Assembly (NCBI GenBank): GCA_937981555.1
Contig: CALJOK010000033.1
Location: 1 to 50,010 of the forward strand
Direction: 5' to 3'
Origin: an uncultured Saprospiraceae bacterium
GTDB lineage: Bacteria > Bacteroidota > Bacteroidia > Chitinophagales > Saprospiraceae
Length of the DNA: 50,010 bases
Below, one piece after another: positions 2,428-46,106 of the stretch. The notes below the pieces were generated by a model. That model was not told where the DNA came from. It ran no database searches and was given only the letters and a program-made list of their open reading frames with translations. The stretch's first letter is position 1, and each line of letters begins with the position of its first letter. The position numbers were made by a program, and so were the translations under genes.

Positions 2428-3078
2428 ATGATGTCAAAAAACGTTCTCCTTTTTAGTTTAGTTTTTTTTCTATTTAGCTGCGGGAATGCAGAGGAAGAAA
2501 TCAAAACAACCTTTAGCTCTATTCAAAATTATCAAGCAGCAGCACCCTTGATCAAAATGTTGGACGAAGGATCAGTAAATTATTTTTCAGAAATGGGAAG
2601 AGTTGCAGCTTCAAGAAAAAAAAATGATATCCGAAATTACTGCAATAGTTCACTTTATCCACTTTCTACCAGATATATGGTTCAGGTTTTAGAAATGATG
2701 GGGCCGAGTGATTCTACATCGATTATTGAATTGGAAGATGTGATTTCGATAGCTAATCTCGCTGATTTTGGACCGATCGGGGTGGATAACCGAAAGCGAT
2801 ATAAATTCCACAAATTGGAAAGAGCGAATGATCGAATCGCGACTGCGATCATTAACTATAAAGTCAATCCAAATGCACATACTTATGTTCAATCTAGCGT
2901 TCAATTTTCCAAAAAAGAAGGAGAAGGTTGGAAAATGAATTTTCAAGAAACGCTTTCTTTTTTTGAAAAATACTTGACTAGATTGAAGAGCGAAAGTGGT
3001 GCGATGAGTGATGAAGATTTTATCCAAAATTTTATTATCAATGGTGGAAAAGAAATTGAATTTAAGTATCGACAGTAA
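2428..3078 (+). CDS. Putative lipoprotein of unknown function
   Basis: 216 residues starting with tandem Met codons; either could be the start. The hydrophobic leader ends in LFSC, so Cys18 is a likely lipidation site after signal peptidase II cleavage. The mature part is hydrophilic, has no cysteine-rich, catalytic or repeat motif that I recognise, and ends in a charged tail. It converges on uvrA and the two share a strong bidirectional terminator. I cannot assign a family. It would be anchored in the inner or outer membrane facing the periplasm. Confidence 0.75.
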   Translation: MMSKNVLLFSLVFFLFSCGNAEEEIKTTFSSIQNYQAAAPLIKMLDEGSVNYFSEMGRVAASRKKNDIRNYCNSSLYPLSTRYMVQVLEMMGPSDSTSIIELEDVISIANLADFGPIGVDNRKRYKFHKLERANDRIATAIINYKVNPNAHTYVQSSVQFSKKEGEGWKMNFQETLSFFEKYLTRLKSESGAMSDEDFIQNFIINGGKEIEFKYRQ

Positions 3079-3094
3079 AATTTTACCAAATAAA

Positions 3095-3130
3095 AAAAGC
3101 GCATTTCTTTTGCTAAAGAAATGCGCTTTT
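3095..3130. terminator. Bidirectional intrinsic terminator between the lipoprotein gene and uvrA
   Basis: A perfect 16-bp inverted repeat (3095-3110 and 3115-3130, 4-nt loop) with core GCGCATTTCTTT. A-runs on one side become U-runs on the other strand, so it can stop both convergent genes. Confidence 0.9.
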
Positions 3131-3151
3131 AATTTTTTTGAAAAAAGAAAT

Positions 3152-6001
3152 CTACAATTTCTCCTTCAAATAATGTCCAGTAAAACTTTCTTTTACTTTT
3201 ACCAGATCCTCAGGTATTCCTTGAAAGACTAAATTTCCACCTTCCTTACCACCACCAGGTCCAAGGTCAATTACCCAATCTGCAGATTTGATAATTTCCA
3301 TATTATGCTCGACAACAAGAACAGTATGACCTTTTTCTACCAAAGCATTAAGGGCGTCCAATAATTTTTGAATATCATGAAAATGCAAACCAGTTGTCGG
3401 TTCATCAAAAATAAAAAGAATCTTTTCCGTCGTTCTTTCTTTCGTTAAAAAAGAAGCCAACTTTACTCGTTGTGCTTCTCCTCCTGAAAGGGTAGAGGAG
3501 GACTGTCCCAATTTAATATATCCTAGACCGACATTAAAAAGTGGTCGAATCTTTTTCACCACATCTTTTGCTTCCGCAAAAAAGTCGAGTGCTTCTTCAA
3601 TACTTAAATTGAGGATTTCAAAAATGTTTTTATCCTTATATCTGACGTCCAATATTTCTGCTTTAAATCGTTGGCCTTTGCACTCTTCGCACTCCAATCG
3701 AACATCAGCTAAGAATTGCATCTCTACGACTTGCTCGCCATCGCCGCTACAAGTTTCGCAACGTCCTGCATCCACGTTGAATGAGAAATGTTTCGGGAGG
3801 TAACCTCGGATTTTTGACAATTGCTGGTTGGACATCAACGCTCGAATAGTATCGTAAGCTTTGACGTAAGTAACGGGATTGGAACGAGAAGATTTACCAA
3901 TTGGATTTTGATTCACCATCTCGACTTGAGTAATTCTTTTCAAACTTCCAGTCAACTCATCATGAACACCAGGTGCAATTGGATAAGGTTCGCCCAAATG
4001 TCTTTTCAAGGCAGGATACAAAATTTGTTTAACCAAAGTCGTTTTTCCAGAACCTGAAACGCCACTCACGACAGTCAAAGTATTGAGTGGGAATTTCGCA
4101 TTTACATTTTGCAAGTTATTTTGACGCGCTCCTTTGATTTCGATTGCATCGGTAAATTTCCGACGAATCTTTGGAACTGGAATTTCCATTCGACCACTCA
4201 TATATGCTGTGGTCAAACTGTCCTTGGCTAATTTAAAGATATCTTTATAATCACCTGCGAAAACAACTTCACCACCATGAATTCCAGCCTCTGGGCCCAT
4301 GTCAATTAAGTAATCGCAATTTTTGATGATGTCTTCTTCATGCTCCACCACGACCACAGTATTTCCTAAATCTCGCAGCGACTTCAACACCTTGACTAAA
4401 CGACCCGTATCTCTTGGATGCAAACCAACACTCGGCTCATCCAAAATATAAAGCGAACTCGTCAAGTTACTTCCCAGGGTTCGAGTCAAATTAATTCGTT
4501 GCGTTTCTCCACCACTTAGTGTTGCAGAATTTCTACTCAACGTCAAATATCCCAGTCCAACATCGAGCATAAATTGCAATCGATTTTCTACTTCAACTAA
4601 AAGTCGTTTCGCGATTTCTTTATCGTTAGCGTTGAGTTTTAATTTTTGGAAAAAAACTAATAATTCATCGAGTGGAATGTCGGTTAATTCTGAAATTGAA
4701 ATGCCGCCAACTTTTACATAAGTTGCTTCGGGGCGTAACCGACCACCATCACAATTATGGCAAGTTGTTTTTCCTCGGTAGCGAGCCAACATAACTCGGT
4801 TTTGAATTTTATAAGTTTTCGCTTCTAGTTCCGCAAAGAATTCATGGATGCCATTGAAGTATTCATTTCCATCCCAAACTAATTTCTTTTGCTCCTTTGT
4901 CAAATCTTGCCAAGGGCGATGAACGGGGAAATTAAATTTGTGCGCAGCACTTAAAAACAAGTCCAACCATCGTCCTAATTTTTCTCCTTTCCAACAAGCC
5001 ACCGCTCCATCAAAAACAGAAAGTGACGGATTAGGAATAACTTTATTTCTATCCACGCCCATCGTTTTTCCAAAACCTTCACAGACTGGACAAGCACCGT
5101 AAGGATTATTGGAATTGAATAATTGATGCGTCGGTTCCAAGAAAATCATTCCATCCAACTCGAAACGATTGTTAAATTCTTTTTTCTTTTTCCCCATCAC
5201 ATCGACGATGCACTCTCCTTCACTTTCGGAAAAAGCAGTTTGTACCGAATCACCAATCCTTTGCACATGCTCAATATCATCATCAGCTCTAATGGCAAAT
5301 CTATCGATCAAAATTCTAACATCTTTTTTGATGAAAAAATCAACCGTCTTGTCGAGTTTGATTTTTTTATCTTCTAAGATATCTTCGATTCGTTTGAGTT
5401 CTTTGTTATAATATATTCGGGTAAAACCTTTTTGCAATAAAAAAGAAAGTTCTTGTTTCAAGGTTCGGTCTTTATACTTTTGTTGCAAAGGAATAAAGAG
5501 TTGTACTTTTTCTCCTTCATCATTGCTTTGAATAAAATCGACCACATCTTGCACTTCATGCTTTCTAACTTCCTTTCCGCTAACTGGCGAAATGGTTTTT
5601 CCAATCCGAGCATATAATAATCTCAGGTAGTCAAAAATTTCAGTTAAGGAACCAACCGTAGATCGAGAATTTCGAGTACTTACTTTTTGTGAAATGGCAA
5701 TGGCTGGACAAATCCCTTTGATATAGTCCACCTCCGGCTTTTTCATTCGCATCAAAAACTGCCTTGCATAACTCGACAAACTTTCCACATATCGTCGCTG
5801 ACCTTCGGCATACAATGTATCCATGGTAATGGAAGATTTCCCAGAACCAGAAACGCCAGTCACGACAACCAATTTGTCGCGAGGAATCATCAAATCCACA
5901 TTTTTCAGATTATTGCCACGAGCACCTTTGATATAAATACCATCCAATTGTTTGGATGTTGTAGGTTTTCTAAGAACAGCAGCAGCTTTTTTGGTCGCCA
6001 T
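3152..6001 (-). CDS. uvrA: Excinuclease ABC subunit A (UvrA)
   Basis: 949 residues, the usual UvrA length. UvrA is the DNA damage sensor of nucleotide excision repair: a dimer scans DNA and loads UvrB. Two ABC ATPase modules are visible, with Walker [10 protein letters not shown] at residues 49-57 and GVSGSGKTT near 645-653, and signature motifs TLSGGETQR (near 495) and TLSGGEAQR (near 840). The second zinc module is intact (CETC...CEEC, about 745-775). In the first zinc module only the second pair (CPVC, near 303) is present; the place of the first CxxC reads [11 protein letters not shown]. That loss may be a lineage trait, and Bacteroidota often carry more than one UvrA paralogue. The gene stands alone and converges on a lipoprotein gene. 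Confidence 0.97.
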
Positions 6002-7890: not shown

Positions 7891-9813
7891 ATGGGTGAAC
7901 AAAAAGTATCCTTACTTCAAGACGACGCGCAAATGCAAAACTTTGTGCGCTTACTTCTAAATGATGTTCGAGCAATGGAATATATGCTCGAAAATGATTG
8001 GTTCGAAACTGGAATCACTCGTATCGGTGCTGAGCAAGAAATGTGCATGGTGCATGATAAAACTTTAAAACCCGCTTGTATCGCAGTCGAGGCTTTGGAG
8101 AAAATGAAAAAGTTTCCTTGGGTCGAAACGGAACTTGCTCGATTTAATTTGGAAACCAACTTGACGCCACGAGAATTTAAAGGGAAATGTTTAAGTCTGT
8201 TGGAAAATGAAAATAATAAAAACTTAGCAGCCATCCGAAAGGTCGTGAATAAAATGGGTGCTGATATTATCCTCACCGGAATCCTTCCGACGTTAAATAA
8301 AGACGATTTAGGTTTTCATAATTTGACTCCCCAAAAAAGATATTTTGCACTCATGGAAGCCATGAAGCAACAATTGATTGGAAATGATTTTGAGTTGCGC
8401 TTGACTGGAATTGATGAGTTGTTGGTGCGGCATGATTCACCCTTGTTGGAAGCGGTGAATACGAGTTTTCAAGTTCACTTGCAGATTGAACCAAAGGATT
8501 TTGTCAAGATGTATAATATATCTCAAGCGTTAGCAGCACCGATTTTGGCAATGGCTGCTAACTCTCCGATTGTGTTTGGTCGAAGGCTGTGGCATGAAAG
8601 TAGAATTGCGATGTTCCAACAAGCGATTGATACTAGAACGACGCATGATCATATGCGGGAAAGATATCCGCGAGTAAGTTTTGGAAATGGTTGGTTGAAA
8701 GATTCTGTGTTGAATATTCACCGAGAAGATATTGCTCGATTTAGAGTGTTGATTAGTAGCGATGTGGAGGAAGATGCATTTGAAATGATTTCGAAAAAGA
8801 TTGCTCCGAAATTGCGAGCGTTGCAAGTTCACAACTCCACGGTTTATCGTTGGAACCGACCTTGCTATGGAATTTCGCCAAATGGAAAACCACATTTAAG
8901 AATAGAGAATCGAGTGATTCCTGCAGGTCCAACGGTGTTGGATGAAGTAGCGAATGCTGCATTTTGGTTAGGTGCAATGATGGGGATGGCTGATAAGGTG
9001 GATGATGTGACCGAACATATTTCGTGGTCAGATGTGCGAGATAATTTTGGGAAAGCGGCTCGATTTGGAATTGATTCTAACTTCACTTGGTTCAAGGATA
9101 AAAAAATTGGGGTGTGCGAATTAGTGCGTAAAGAATTAATTCCAATTGCACGAGCTGGTTTGAAAAAAATGAAAGTGGTGCAAAAAGATATTGATCGATA
9201 TATGGACGTGATAGAAGGAAGGGCTAAGGCTCACATGAATGGAGCAAGATGGCAGTTACGTGCCTTTACCAAACTAAAAGAAGAGACAACTCGTGACGAA
9301 GCATTAAGTGTATTGACTGCATCAATTATTGAAAATCAAAATAAAGGTCTTCCGGGACACAAATGGAAAATGCCAGAACTAACTGATCTCAAAGAATACC
9401 GACCTTCCAAAATCAAGGTGGAAGAATTTATGCAAACCGATTTATTTACAGTCCAAAAAGATGACATCATTGAGTTGGTGGCAGAGATGATGGATTGGCG
9501 AGAAATTAGTTTTACTCCTGTCGAAGATACTAAAGGTAACTTGGTAGGATTGGTGAGTTCGAAAATGATTTTGCGACACCTTGTCAAAGGGAATCGAATG
9601 AATGAAAAAGGGAAAGGAACGGTTAAAGATATTATGCTTAAAAAGCCAACTACGATTACTCCCAACGCAACTATCTTAGAAGCAATGGCTGTGATGAGAG
9701 ATGCGAAGGTTGGATGCCTTCCGGTGATAAAAGGAAAGGAGTTAATAGGGTTAATTACGCAGATGGATTTTTTAAGAGTTTCGGGAAGATTGATTGAAAG
9801 ATTAGAACCTTAG
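7891..9813 (+). CDS. Glutamate-cysteine-ligase family 2 (carboxylate-amine ligase) fused to a CBS-domain pair
   Basis: 640 residues. Residues 1 to ~480 form a GCS2/YbdK-type ATP-dependent carboxylate-amine ligase domain; the substrate-binding signature TRIGAEQE lies at 43-50, with later conserved segments such as NTSFQVHLQ and RIENRVIPAGP. Known members make gamma-glutamyl-cysteine or related gamma-glutamyl amides, the first step of glutathione-type thiol synthesis. Residues ~500-640 form two CBS motifs (VEEFMQTDLFTV... and VKDIMLKKPTTI...), an adenosine-nucleotide-binding Bateman module. The fusion suggests allosteric control of the ligase by AMP/ATP or SAM. No gshB partner lies nearby. The exact substrate is not provable from sequence. 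The start follows the palindromic element by about 30 bp. Confidence 0.85.
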   Translation: MGEQKVSLLQDDAQMQNFVRLLLNDVRAMEYMLENDWFETGITRIGAEQEMCMVHDKTLKPACIAVEALEKMKKFPWVETELARFNLETNLTPREFKGKCLSLLENENNKNLAAIRKVVNKMGADIILTGILPTLNKDDLGFHNLTPQKRYFALMEAMKQQLIGNDFELRLTGIDELLVRHDSPLLEAVNTSFQVHLQIEPKDFVKMYNISQALAAPILAMAANSPIVFGRRLWHESRIAMFQQAIDTRTTHDHMRERYPRVSFGNGWLKDSVLNIHREDIARFRVLISSDVEEDAFEMISKKIAPKLRALQVHNSTVYRWNRPCYGISPNGKPHLRIENRVIPAGPTVLDEVANAAFWLGAMMGMADKVDDVTEHISWSDVRDNFGKAARFGIDSNFTWFKDKKIGVCELVRKELIPIARAGLKKMKVVQKDIDRYMDVIEGRAKAHMNGARWQLRAFTKLKEETTRDEALSVLTASIIENQNKGLPGHKWKMPELTDLKEYRPSKIKVEEFMQTDLFTVQKDDIIELVAEMMDWREISFTPVEDTKGNLVGLVSSKMILRHLVKGNRMNEKGKGTVKDIMLKKPTTITPNATILEAMAVMRDAKVGCLPVIKGKELIGLITQMDFLRVSGRLIERLEP

Positions 9814-42422: not shown

Positions 42423-45125
42423 ATGAAATTTCTATTTTCACTTCTTTTAATAATTTTTGTGGCTAACTATAGTTTAGCTCAGGCAACCTCCCGAACGGAT
42501 TCTATTTTATTGACGATAGAGCAAACTCCAGATGATAAAAAATTAAAAGCATGGAGAAGTTGGTTCTCCGAGCTTTCAATAGAGGAACTTCCTGTTGCTT
42601 ATGAAGCATTGGATCAAGCTTATAACGATGCAATAAATATAGTTGGGCAAGATTCAGCTTTACTGTGGCTTTTTTATAGACAATCTAATTTCGTGGTTAA
42701 GTTTCAAAGATATGGAAAAGGTAATGTTAGTGTTCAGATTTTAGATAAAATGAAAAAAACGGCTGATTCTTTATCAAAAGAATCACCTCATTGGACTTTG
42801 ATGAAATGGTATTATCGATTAGCTCATTTCCATTATATGCAAGTAGATATGGATAAGGCGGAAGAGTATTATAATAAAGCTTTGGAACTATGTAAAGAAT
42901 CGGGCGATATTAAGATGTCATTTATTATAAATAAAAACATGGGACTCATGAAATCTTTCATGGATGATACTGAAGCAGCAGCTATGTATTTAGATGTTGC
43001 AGATTCGTTGTTACAATATATCACCATTTCAGATATTGACAAGTATTCTTTTTATTACAGTAAAGCATATGTGCATAAAAATGCAGAACAGAATGAATTG
43101 GCCGATAGTTATTTTTCTCAAGTTTTAGATAGTTTACATCTTTTCACAAAAAGTTTTCAAGATCGAGTTCATACAGATTACGCTGCAAATCTATGCAGCA
43201 TGGGAAAAGTAGATGAATGTGTAAGATACCTTGAGAAATTAAAACCAATCTTTGAAGAAGATAACTTAGATGCTACCATGTTAACTTTTGGGGAAGAATA
43301 TACAGAAGCGTTAATGCTGGCAGGAAGGTTTGAAGAAGGGAAAGAATGGGCTGTCAAAACTCGAATTTACTATATGAACATTCAAGAAGCTCGTCGGAAT
43401 GATCAGATTCAAGAATGGCAAACTAAATATGAAACCAAAAAGAAAGAGAATCAAATCCAACTTTTAGAACAAGAGCAAACGATTTCTCAAACTCGATTAG
43501 TTATAATATCATTGATTGCGCTTTTTGGAATAGGTATTCTATCTTTCTTTATTTATCGAAATAAAAATAAACGAAAACAACTCGCTCTTCAATTAGATTT
43601 AGATCGGCAAGTAGCTGAAAACCGAGATCGACTTTTTTCTTCTATTACTCATGATATTCGTACTCCTTTAGCGCTGATGTTGGCTCCCTTAGAAAGAGCG
43701 GAAAATAATGTTATTGATCAGGGAACCAAATCAGATATTCAATTGGCAAGAAGAAATGGAAAACGATTAATGGAGCTTTTTAATCAAATTTTAGATTGGA
43801 ACAAAGCAGAGGCAAAAGCATTAAGATTAAATCCACAAGTTGGCCAATTAGATTTTACCTTTAAATCCTTATGTGAACGATACGAACAACAAGCGATTGA
43901 GCAAGGAATTATTTTTAATCAAAAAGTAAAAATGCCAAAAGGACAATTTCTTTTGGATTATGATAAGTTGGATAAAATTCTTTCTAACCTTGTTGGTAAT
44001 GCTATCAAATTTTGTGATACTGGACAAGGGGTAACTTTGAATGCAGATTTTGAGAAAAAAGATAATCAATACTCTTTATCCTTAATTGTTAGTGACCAAG
44101 GACCAGGAATTGCTGCCGATGAACAAGAAGGACTTTTTGAAAGATATGTTCAAGGAACTCAAGGAAAACTGAAAGGAGGAACTGGAATCGGACTGGCTTT
44201 GGTCAAAGAGCTAGTCGAAATGATGAAAGGAAATATCGAACTTCAATCTGAAATTGGAAAAGGAGCAACCTTTAAAGTTAATCTTCCAATTGAAATGCTC
44301 GATGAAATGCCAGTGAGTGTTTTACCCAATCAAGAGGATTTATTATCAGATGAAAGTTCTGATAAAACTTTAATTCTTGTCGTAGAAGATGAACCTGAGT
44401 TATTAGAATTTTTAAGGTCAGCACTTTCCAGCGATTATGATGTAGAAATTGCGAATTCTACTTCTACAGGTTTGAATATAGCAATTAACCGAATCCCCGA
44501 AATTATTATTTCAGATTGGACATTACCTGACCAGAACGGTGGATGGTTATGCCGACAAGTAGCTAAAAATGAATTGACTGCACATATCCCAGTCATGATC
44601 TTGACTGCACATAATAGTGATACCAACCAAAAAGAAGCATTTGACTCGGGGGCAGTTGCTTGGATGAATAAGCCATTTCAAATTGATACACTTAAAAGGC
44701 AATTAAAAACCATTCTCCTTCAACAACAACGAGCACAAAATTTATGGAAAAATACTGTTACTCCTGAAAATGTAAGTGATAAACAAATAGAACAAGTCGA
44801 AACTGTCGATCCATTTATGCAAAAAGTGCTCGATGTGATTGAAGAAAACTATACAGATGAAAAATTTTCAGTTGAGAAAATGGCGGAGGCGCTTTTTTTA
44901 AGTAGAGTTCAACTATTTCGCAAGATAAAAAGTATAACCGGTAGTAGTGCGAGCAAAATGATTAATGAATTTAGATTAAAAAAAGCTCGAAAGCTTTTGC
45001 AAGAATCTGGAAAATCAGTTTCTGAGGTAACTTTCTTAGTAGGATTTGCAGATCCAAGCTATTTTGGAAAAGCTTACAAGCAATATTTTAGTGTTTCTCC
45101 ATCTCAAGATTTAGGAAGTCGCTAA
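42423..45125 (+). CDS. Hybrid two-component sensor kinase / response regulator with AraC output (HTCS-like)
   Basis: 900 residues. Signal peptide ends YSLAQ (20). A TPR-rich periplasmic domain (~40-340) takes the place of the usual beta-propeller sensor, followed by a coiled coil, one membrane helix (~359-378), HisKA with H410 (SSITHDIRTPLALML), HATPase_c (N526 in NLVGNAIKF, DQGPGIA, GTGIGLALVKEL), a receiver domain (E655/D656, phospho-acceptor D698 in IISDWTLPD, K750) and an AraC HTH domain (~815-895; VEKMAEALFLSRVQLFRKI, VSEVTFLVGFADPSYFGKAYKQYF). All signalling residues are intact. It should sense a periplasmic signal, possibly a peptide given the TPR domain, and control nearby promoters. 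The two GG-leader peptide genes begin 470 bp downstream on the same strand. Confidence 0.93.
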   Translation: MKFLFSLLLIIFVANYSLAQATSRTDSILLTIEQTPDDKKLKAWRSWFSELSIEELPVAYEALDQAYNDAINIVGQDSALLWLFYRQSNFVVKFQRYGKGNVSVQILDKMKKTADSLSKESPHWTLMKWYYRLAHFHYMQVDMDKAEEYYNKALELCKESGDIKMSFIINKNMGLMKSFMDDTEAAAMYLDVADSLLQYITISDIDKYSFYYSKAYVHKNAEQNELADSYFSQVLDSLHLFTKSFQDRVHTDYAANLCSMGKVDECVRYLEKLKPIFEEDNLDATMLTFGEEYTEALMLAGRFEEGKEWAVKTRIYYMNIQEARRNDQIQEWQTKYETKKKENQIQLLEQEQTISQTRLVIISLIALFGIGILSFFIYRNKNKRKQLALQLDLDRQVAENRDRLFSSITHDIRTPLALMLAPLERAENNVIDQGTKSDIQLARRNGKRLMELFNQILDWNKAEAKALRLNPQVGQLDFTFKSLCERYEQQAIEQGIIFNQKVKMPKGQFLLDYDKLDKILSNLVGNAIKFCDTGQGVTLNADFEKKDNQYSLSLIVSDQGPGIAADEQEGLFERYVQGTQGKLKGGTGIGLALVKELVEMMKGNIELQSEIGKGATFKVNLPIEMLDEMPVSVLPNQEDLLSDESSDKTLILVVEDEPELLEFLRSALSSDYDVEIANSTSTGLNIAINRIPEIIISDWTLPDQNGGWLCRQVAKNELTAHIPVMILTAHNSDTNQKEAFDSGAVAWMNKPFQIDTLKRQLKTILLQQQRAQNLWKNTVTPENVSDKQIEQVETVDPFMQKVLDVIEENYTDEKFSVEKMAEALFLSRVQLFRKIKSITGSSASKMINEFRLKKARKLLQESGKSVSEVTFLVGFADPSYFGKAYKQYFSVSPSQDLGSR

Positions 45126-45355: not shown

Positions 45356-45376
45356 ACATGAGTACTAAACTCATGT
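45356..45376. terminator. Hairpin upstream of the peptide genes
   Basis: An 8-bp perfect stem ACATGAGT/ACTCATGT with a 5-nt loop followed by a T-rich run (ATTTTTCTTTTTT). It could be a second terminator or an attenuator between the 22-bp repeats and the peptide genes. Confidence 0.5.
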
Positions 45377-45592
45377 ATTTTTCTTTTTTATTTAAAAAAT
45401 ATTTTCTTTTTTATAAAATTTTTAATTTCCAATTTATTGATAATCAACGATTTATGTTTTTATTTTTATTGTTGTAACCATTTTTCTACTTATTGAAACC
45501 TATCTACCTAAGGAATTTTACATCCCGTTCTATATTTACATCGTACTTAGGAACAAACATTGAATTTTTACAAACACTAAAAAAATAATAAG

Positions 45593-45739
45593 ATGAATAA
45601 TACAATCAAAAAATTCGCAAACAAATTAAACGCGACACAAATAATTAATAAAAAAGGATTAGCAAGTATCAAAGGAGGAGCAAGTGATCCACCACCATTT
45701 GGATTAGGAGTAAAAAGCGATCCACCACCATTCGGATAA
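45593..45739 (+). CDS. Double-glycine-leader peptide precursor, copy 1 (48 aa)
   Basis: The protein starts MNNTIKKFANKLNATQIINK; the leader ends GLASIKGG at residue 29 and the core is ASDPPPFGLGVKSDPPPFG (19 residues). The leader is amphipathic and basic with the -2/-1 GlyGly cleaved by C39-peptidase (PCAT) transporters, as in bacteriocin and ComC-like precursors. The core has no Cys, Ser-rich or Thr-rich ring-forming pattern; its two SDPPPFG units make it a Pro-rich repeat peptide. Expression is supported by the second copy, in which leader codons vary silently or conservatively while the core is unchanged. A TATATTTAC box (45531-45539) is a weak -7 candidate. No exporter lies in the window. 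Confidence 0.75.
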   Translation: MNNTIKKFANKLNATQIINKKGLASIKGGASDPPPFGLGVKSDPPPFG

Positions 45740-45799
45740 ACCTACTCTTATATAAAAGAAAGTAATTAAATTTCTTACAAACACTAAAAAAACAAAAAA

Positions 45800-45943
45800 A
45801 TGAAAAATATATCAAAATTCGCAAGCAAATTAAATGCGACACAAGTAATCAATAAGAAAGGATTAGCAAGTATCAAAGGAGGAGCAAGTGATCCACCACC
45901 ATTTGGATTAGGAGTAAAAAGCGATCCACCACCATTCGGATAA
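45800..45943 (+). CDS. Double-glycine-leader peptide precursor, copy 2 (47 aa)
   Basis: The protein starts MKNISKFASKLNATQVINKK; the leader ends GLASIKGG at residue 28 and the 19-residue core is identical to that of copy 1. The last ~85 bp of the two genes are identical, while the 5' ~60 bp of coding sequence differ at many sites yet keep the leader pattern K-F-A-x-K-L-N-A-T-Q-(I/V)-I-N-K-K-G-L-A-S-I-K-G-G. The duplicated unit includes the 5' flank TTACAAACACTAAAAAA. The gap between the genes is 60 bp, and a very strong terminator follows at 46059, so both may be on one mRNA. Confidence 0.75.
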   Translation: MKNISKFASKLNATQVINKKGLASIKGGASDPPPFGLGVKSDPPPFG

Positions 45944-46058: not shown

Positions 46059-46106
46059 CAACATAAAAACCTCTGTAGTCATTTGATTGCAGAGGTTTTT
46101 ATGTTG
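46059..46106. terminator. Strong hairpin terminator after the peptide genes
   Basis: A 17-bp perfect stem CAACATAAAAACCTCTG/CAGAGGTTTTTATGTTG with a 14-nt loop. The U-run is inside the stem, which also works for the opposite strand. Confidence 0.85.

Follow-up and report, generated by a model that had tools for sequence, protein, structure and literature searches.

A double-glycine-leader peptide pair beside a TPR-histidine kinase: a candidate peptide signalling system in Saprospiraceae

Two adjacent small genes of an uncultured Saprospiraceae bacterium may encode precursors of an exported peptide signal that is sensed by a TPR-histidine kinase and is probably autoinducing, an account in which we place slightly more belief than doubt. 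The genes lie in a stretch of 50,010 nucleotides (the window) on contig C33 of a 7.25-Mb genome in 117 contigs (G000). In the proposed mechanism, a C39-peptidase ABC exporter from elsewhere in the genome would, together with HlyD- and TolC-type partners, cut the proline-rich precursors after a double glycine (GG) and release a 19-residue core in which SDPPPFG occurs twice. This peptide would be sensed by a histidine-kinase TPR domain outside the inner membrane, the sensor here most likely being the hybrid kinase encoded just upstream, and the receiver and AraC-type domain of that kinase would act on a promoter block of the peptide genes to give autoinduction.

Results

Both window genes are intact and lie on the + strand. 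The first (45593..45739) encodes a 48-residue precursor with leader MNNTIKKFANKLNATQIINKKGLASIKGG, and the second (45800..45943) encodes a 47-residue precursor with leader MKNISKFASKLNATQVINKKGLASIKGG. In each, the core ASDPPPFGLGVKSDPPPFG directly follows GLASIKGG, in agreement with an original prediction that there are two adjacent small ORFs with an identical core at this place. The 19-residue core comprises SDPPPFG twice with LGVK as spacer, and the DNA of the two cores is identical. Because the genes are 87% identical to each other and have a 17-nt upstream element in common, they are, as judged by sequence, tandem duplicates rather than the pair of different but converging leaders that had been described. 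The window pair gave no NCBIfam match at E values up to 10 and no Pfam family above its cut-off; weak, sub-cut-off NCBIfam matches were found for 6 of 10 relatives.

Codons were compared among ten genus members, which form 45 pairs, with the 33 pairs of unequal core length left out. In the 12 remaining comparisons the cores differed by 0-6 synonymous codons and by at most one replacement (V/I), whereas the leaders of the same pairs showed roughly 0-8 synonymous differences and as many as 10 replacements. With few replacements in the cores and many in the leaders, the genes look translated and their core looks constrained. The cores of one congener, G001, differ in sequence from those of G000 and of a second congener, G003. 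Opposite both leaders, on the minus strand, lie hydrophobic ORFs (45577-45672 and 45784-45876), which are probably a by-product of lysine-rich leader codons.

Two other readings of the peptides were considered and set aside. Relatives were absent from the viral contigs, phages and plasmids searched, which speaks against a mobile element. As for anti-phage defence, the peptides had no PADLOC match; the window kinase matched a single PADLOC model, PDC-M43B, through residues 501-610, which are its ATPase domain.

A terminator-like hairpin (45356..45376, + strand) separates the kinase gene from the peptide genes (consensus scan; one found versus 0.3 in shuffles). It is followed by a promoter block, AACCTATCTACCTAAGGAATTTT ... 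TATATTTACATCGTA (45497..45545, + strand), which was delineated by alignment of 10 upstream regions and a genome search. The 17-nt 5' element TTACAAACACTAAAAAA precedes gene 1 (45568..45584) and gene 2 (45775..45791), in both cases on the + strand and ending 8 nt before the start codon; these are two exact matches in the window, where 0.07 would be expected at ≤2 mismatches. Downstream, a strong hairpin with a T run (46059..46106, no strand assigned) has a stability of -31.8 kcal/mol, reached in 0 of 200 shuffles, and is likely to be the end of the transcription unit. A strong hairpin is also present at the peptide copy on contig C28 of G003.

The promoter block is common to the first peptide gene of each array, namely in the window, twice in G003 and twice in G001, at loci that otherwise lie in different surroundings, and inner array copies carry the 5' element without the block. 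These five sites were combined into a pattern, and the genomes of five genus members (G000-G004) were searched with it. G000, G001 and G003 each contain two exact copies, and G002 and G004 contain none. Five of the six exact copies are the sites from which the pattern was built; the one new copy, on contig C5 of G000, lies ∼66 nt from where the retrieved locus breaks off, within the 5' element and ahead of the expected start codon, and may be the missing front of a second array in the same genome, on contig C93. A wider regulon was rejected, in that beyond the exact copies the five genomes held two matches with 3 mismatches, compared with 13 at ≤3 mismatches for the reversed control. The motif TANNTTTG, which we take to be the Bacteroidota -7 box, is not found at the peptide promoter. 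The occurrence of one sequence block before several arrays is only suggestive as a hint of peptide-driven autoregulation.

The gene upstream of the peptides (42423..45125, + strand) encodes a hybrid histidine kinase of 900 residues, the proposed sensor, characterized by Pfam, hydropathy, AlphaFold2 modelling and its conserved place in G003 and G001. Its order is an N-terminal hydrophobic segment, TPR, a transmembrane segment (residues 359-377), HisKA, HATPase_c, a receiver and HTH_18/AraC. By hydropathy there is one transmembrane segment besides the N-terminal one, and the protein is not polytopic in the manner of ComD. Since the N-terminal segment precedes the TPR part and the transmembrane segment follows it, the TPR domain would lie outside the inner membrane. 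AlphaFold2, supplied with three alignment rows, predicted an all-helical superhelix for residues 20-358 (pLDDT 88, pTM 0.73). The nearest solved folds were consensus TPRs, LGN and kinesin light chain, some of them peptide-bound, with RapF at rank 39; this proximity of the predicted fold to peptide-binding TPRs (LGN, kinesin light chain and RapF) counts in favour of peptide sensing.

G003 and G001 retain the order kinase, peptides, S1-like gene (the last assigned by inspection), so the neighbourhood is recurrent. Relatives of the sensor part were found at ≥57% identity in G001 and G003; G002 gave a 24% match and G004, which is 66% complete, gave none. Close sensor orthologues are thus confined, among the five congeners, to exactly the window genome, G001 and G003, and both peptide-bearing congeners have an orthologue of the window kinase beside the peptides. 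Outside the genus, strong relatives of the sensor part occurred only in G211 and G121, at 27-29%. In G121, consecutive genes for two hybrid kinases (908 and 895 residues) are followed by two tandem CPPP peptides with core IGGNSCPPPCCHDITGNGNGLLP, the second cut by the contig end. On sequence grounds this locus (L216) is the window layout in another genus; the sensor part of its second kinase is 22% identical to that of the window kinase, and Pfam detected no TPR at 1e-4 in either of its kinases. Two further hybrid homologues, L214 and L215, had no PPP-type GG peptide nearby.

Relatives of the window peptides were sought in 60 genomes, 10 of which gave any match at E 1. In the own genome, a second pair stands at the start of contig C93, the first gene being cut by the contig end with three units visible, and contig C15 carries a single-unit relative whose core after KGG is GKSDPPPFCLGGCS. 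G001 has arrays of three and two, with cores like QGDPPPWGDAKVKSDPPPFGHQEN, and one single-unit gene; G003 has two single peptide genes. Relatives with the same leader/core split were found in all three genomes, and the claim of a GG-leader peptide family is upheld by this conservation. Contigs break inside or beside peptide arrays at G000 C5 (end) and C93 (start) and at G121 C188 and C298, so the arrays are probably larger than these draft genomes show.

All 14 rows of a 14-member profile (A1) carry KGG. At E 0.1, A1 matched 45 of 298 family genomes, although several of the weaker rows, in long frames, are surely chance. The cores of the clear members are GDPPPWPEDDDD, SEPPPFG once or twice, GDPPPIG, AEPPPWG or CPPPF. 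By sequence, the window peptides belong to a Saprospiraceae family with DPPPF/W, EPPPF and CPPP cores in one to three units. Spread beyond the family found no footing, A1 having matched 2 of 247 phylum genomes at E 0.01, namely the own genome and G416. Four named records encode a close relative, all of them Saprospiraceae. Outside the family-first sets, 0 of 28 kinase loci had a GG ORF upstream, most of these loci having matched through the kinase domain only.

Linkage between peptides and kinases was examined from both directions. Starting from the peptides, a PPP-type GG peptide was present in 35 of 36 loci, and a histidine kinase lay within 6 kb in 14 of these 35. The other 21 had no kinase within that distance, some being on short contigs or ending at contig edges; among them are the SEPPPFG and GDPPPIG loci, the three-gene array of G001 and the own copies on C93 and C15. 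Of ten GG-DPPPW loci, one is cut off at a contig edge; the nine with intact flanks, from 6 genera, all had a TPR-kinase as the next gene on the same strand at a distance of 67-345 nt. The DPPPW-linked kinases share 27-42% identity, one close pair excepted, yet DPPPW is retained.

For the reverse direction, a profile of 11 peptide-linked kinases (A2) was searched against 150 family genomes and further loci were fetched. The resulting 61 loci comprised 21 of the best A2-search loci and 40 hand-picked regions from A2 matches; A2 members and L132 were left out of the test, and genes with <400 nt on either side were dropped. The window kinase falls outside the kinase group of these statistics, its G003 orthologue scoring 143 bits with A2 compared with ≥276 bits for all the rest but one. 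Of 60 TPR-kinases, 15 had a same-strand GG-leader ORF ≤400 nt upstream, as did 1 of 54 other genes (Fisher 2.8e-4; P values are descriptive because the genomes are related), and the three other positions around the TPR-kinases held 0, 1 and 1 GG-leader ORFs. The PP[PDW] motif was found for 9 of 22 kinases scoring >550 bits, 0 of 38 at 300-550 bits and 0 of 54 other genes (3.5e-6 and 3.4e-5), where the GG pattern, the motif and the 550-bit cut were fixed after the first results had been seen, and where a high A2 score still means closeness to linked kinases because A2 was built from them. This second test used a widened leader pattern, GG or GK (any such leader, 17/60 versus 2/54), and its nine positive cases include one with GKG (L159), one pair of orthologues (L157/L163) and one close pair (L142/L144).

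Cores recovered from the kinase side were GNPPDWDVH or GNPPDWDLH in 4 and 5 units, CPPPDPED-type ends and, in the own genome, LPPPTGG; cores of the CCxRNxW type (own genome too) and the RxRP type lay beside lower-scoring kinases. The precursors with 4 and 5 GNPPDWD units (L142, 1213-1407; L144, 3642-3863) stand right before a TPR-kinase. Four GG-leader peptides with a conserved CCxRNxW core (GAYFCCTRNRWIQY, GYWCCVRNKWIH, GQYYCCARNKWITY and TAFYYCCTRNQWYQN) were seen at L158 (own genome C44, upstream of 2849-4912), L183, L180 and L092, directly before TPR-kinases that form one clade. At L159 (own genome C26) and L085, GKG replaces GG before a CPPP-type core upstream of kinases. On contig C97 of G060 (L178 and L145), four GG peptides lie between and before two TPR-kinases; three of the peptides share the ending CPPPDPED although the spacers ahead of it differ greatly. 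Own-genome contig C80 (L010) carries two GG-leader-like ORFs with unrelated cores (578-751 and 9402-9524), the second near a TPR-CHAT protein.

No peptide was recognized for 46 of the 78 TPR-kinases with enough upstream sequence (before three hand relabels). A tree was made from 80 sensor regions. Its 28 labelled rows show 7 changes of core type, compared with at least 12 in 200 shuffles; peptide presence changes 8 times among 78 rows, compared with at least 19. Labels were partly set by hand (L150 and L187 to none, L117 to CPP), and the core count left out two rows short of upstream sequence as well as the 'other GG' rows. The shuffles take no account of common descent, and common descent of linked genes explains part of the clustering.

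As regards export, the own genome encodes two full C39-ABC exporters and their HlyD-type partners, in one case together with a divergent TolC-type gene, which answers the suggestion that such an exporter be looked for elsewhere in the genome. From this and the GG leaders, we infer secretion and the cleavage site. All 22 family genomes that A1 matched at E 1e-3 contain C39, as do 21 of 36 examined genomes without a listed match (Fisher 3.5e-4); peptide-bearing genomes may be larger, which would bias this comparison, and the 36 include G035 and G060, carriers of NPPDW or CPPP peptides. Left out were G308 (E 0.0011, no PPP core) and G002 and G020 (weak matches), all three of which have C39. A dedicated exporter beside the peptides was discounted, none being seen at the loci, and at 8 exporter loci of three genomes there was no GG-leader ORF among those shown. 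A lone C39-peptidase protein of 170 residues without an ABC transporter is encoded on own-genome contig C29 (L051, 7051-7563), and short C39 frames occur in other genomes too.

Discussion

Linkage alone fits a ligand and a regulated output alike. The kinase could respond to some other cue and, without binding the peptide, control its expression, the peptide then being an exported effector such as a modulator or a narrow bacteriocin. We consider this unlikely, though it is the strongest of the alternatives: an identical gene neighbourhood would result, many peptide loci have no kinase, and GG-leader export is common to bacteriocins (PMC6363468). Set against it, core type follows sensor-domain phylogeny, which is likelier for a ligand even if common descent of linked genes would also yield it, and by inspection no immunity-like gene stood out in the ORFs beside the window pair. 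Because TPR-histidine kinases recur beside this peptide class, a signal is now favoured over an antimicrobial, between which the original prediction had not chosen. Its interpretation thus holds in part; it overlooked the kinase, the promoter block, the variation in repeat number and the family-wide kinase link.

That the precursor is a RiPP, the active compound being an enzymatically modified core with whatever target, appears improbable. In its favour, GG precursors of Bacteroidota are often RiPPs (PMC10352776); TIGR04149 gives a sub-cut-off match (1.2e-4) to one kinase-linked relative, and the window core does contain Ser, Asp and Lys. By eye, no modification enzyme was recognized in the ORF lists around the window pair, and none of nine DPPPW cores checked has Ser, Thr or Lys, 7 of the 9 also being free of Cys. 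Ester, lanthionine and thioether chemistry is therefore rejected as a general feature of the family. The kinase link could also be a by-product of numerous TPR-kinases (up to 9 strong matches per genome, with 7 candidates scored per genome), the peptides acting in an unrelated way, but the specificity of strand, side and motif relative to controls and the clustering of peptide presence and core type on the sensor tree make this the least probable reading.

Counting against the preferred reading are the 21 of 35 peptide loci with no kinase in range, the 46 of 78 TPR-kinases with no recognized peptide, the position of the window kinase outside the A2 group, and L214 and L215 with no PPP-type peptide close by. 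This reading, an exported signal sensed by a TPR-kinase, is proposed to work like the ComC/ComD pheromone systems while differing in ligand, sensor and phylum. ComC/ComD, BlpC/BlpH and plantaricin systems are Gram-positive and have a polytopic membrane sensor. The likeness lies in a GG-leader precursor, a C39 exporter, a nearby histidine kinase and proposed autoinduction; the differences are that the window system is from Bacteroidota, has a TPR sensor and a repeated proline-aromatic core, and has no exporter beside the peptide. With RRNPP receptors (Rap/PlcR), which are cytoplasmic and fed by peptide import, it would have in common a TPR superhelix as the proposed peptide receptor, although here the superhelix is predicted to lie on the outer side of the inner membrane, ahead of HisKA in a histidine-kinase chain. 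Bacteroidota hybrid two-component systems, used mainly for glycan sensing through other sensor domains, likewise combine a sensor, a kinase, a receiver and an AraC-type domain within a single protein; the window kinase departs from them in its TPR sensor beside peptide genes. GG-leader RiPP precursors of Bacteroidota (TIGR04149 and kin) resemble the window peptides in GG leader, PCAT export and phylum. The window peptides differ from TIGR04149, lanthipeptide leaders and grasp-with-spasm in matching no curated leader model, and no maturase was recognized by eye in the nearby ORFs.

The repeats look like those of a multi-unit precursor or a multivalent ligand; that the LGVK spacer is a second cleavage site is speculation. 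Taken more broadly, we infer, as a proposition that could equally go either way, that Saprospiraceae possess diversified pheromone systems, in which GG-leader precursors with one to five copies of a proline-aromatic ligand are paired with TPR-superhelix kinases outside the inner membrane, at least six core types tracking receptor phylogeny. Peptide quorum sensing is well known in Gram-positive bacteria, and we know of no characterized Bacteroidota counterpart. If the reading is true, it would be a Bacteroidota form of peptide quorum sensing in which a two-component kinase carries a TPR peptide receptor, and it would turn how a Gram-negative bacterium reads an exported peptide into a testable question. 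The peptide-kinase pairs are ready ligand-receptor candidates with peptides short enough to synthesize, and would supply a ligand for some of the many orphan TPR-kinases of Saprospiraceae.

Within the open-access literature, with subscription journals and preprints outside that scope, neither GG peptides of the DPPPF/W type nor a pairing of GG peptides with TPR-kinases was found. Related elements appear in two papers: Bacteroidales clusters that contain GG precursors and PCATs, with an HK/RR pair present in one cluster and TPR genes in two, together with a mention of pheromone-binding TPRs (PMC10352776, the closest paper), and TPR proteins of unclear role near graspetide loci, with a citation of Dirix 2004 on GG peptides of Gram-negatives (PMC8939145). 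PMC6214655 describes the kinesin light chain TPR channel as binding short W-acidic or Y-acidic peptides, in which an aromatic residue is flanked by acids. Such ligands are like the DPPPWPEDDD and NPPDWD of the relatives and unlike the window core, which has F and little acid, and the likeness, to eukaryotic cargo recognition, is offered as an analogy only. The GNPPDWD unit, too, is similar to eukaryotic W-acidic motifs.
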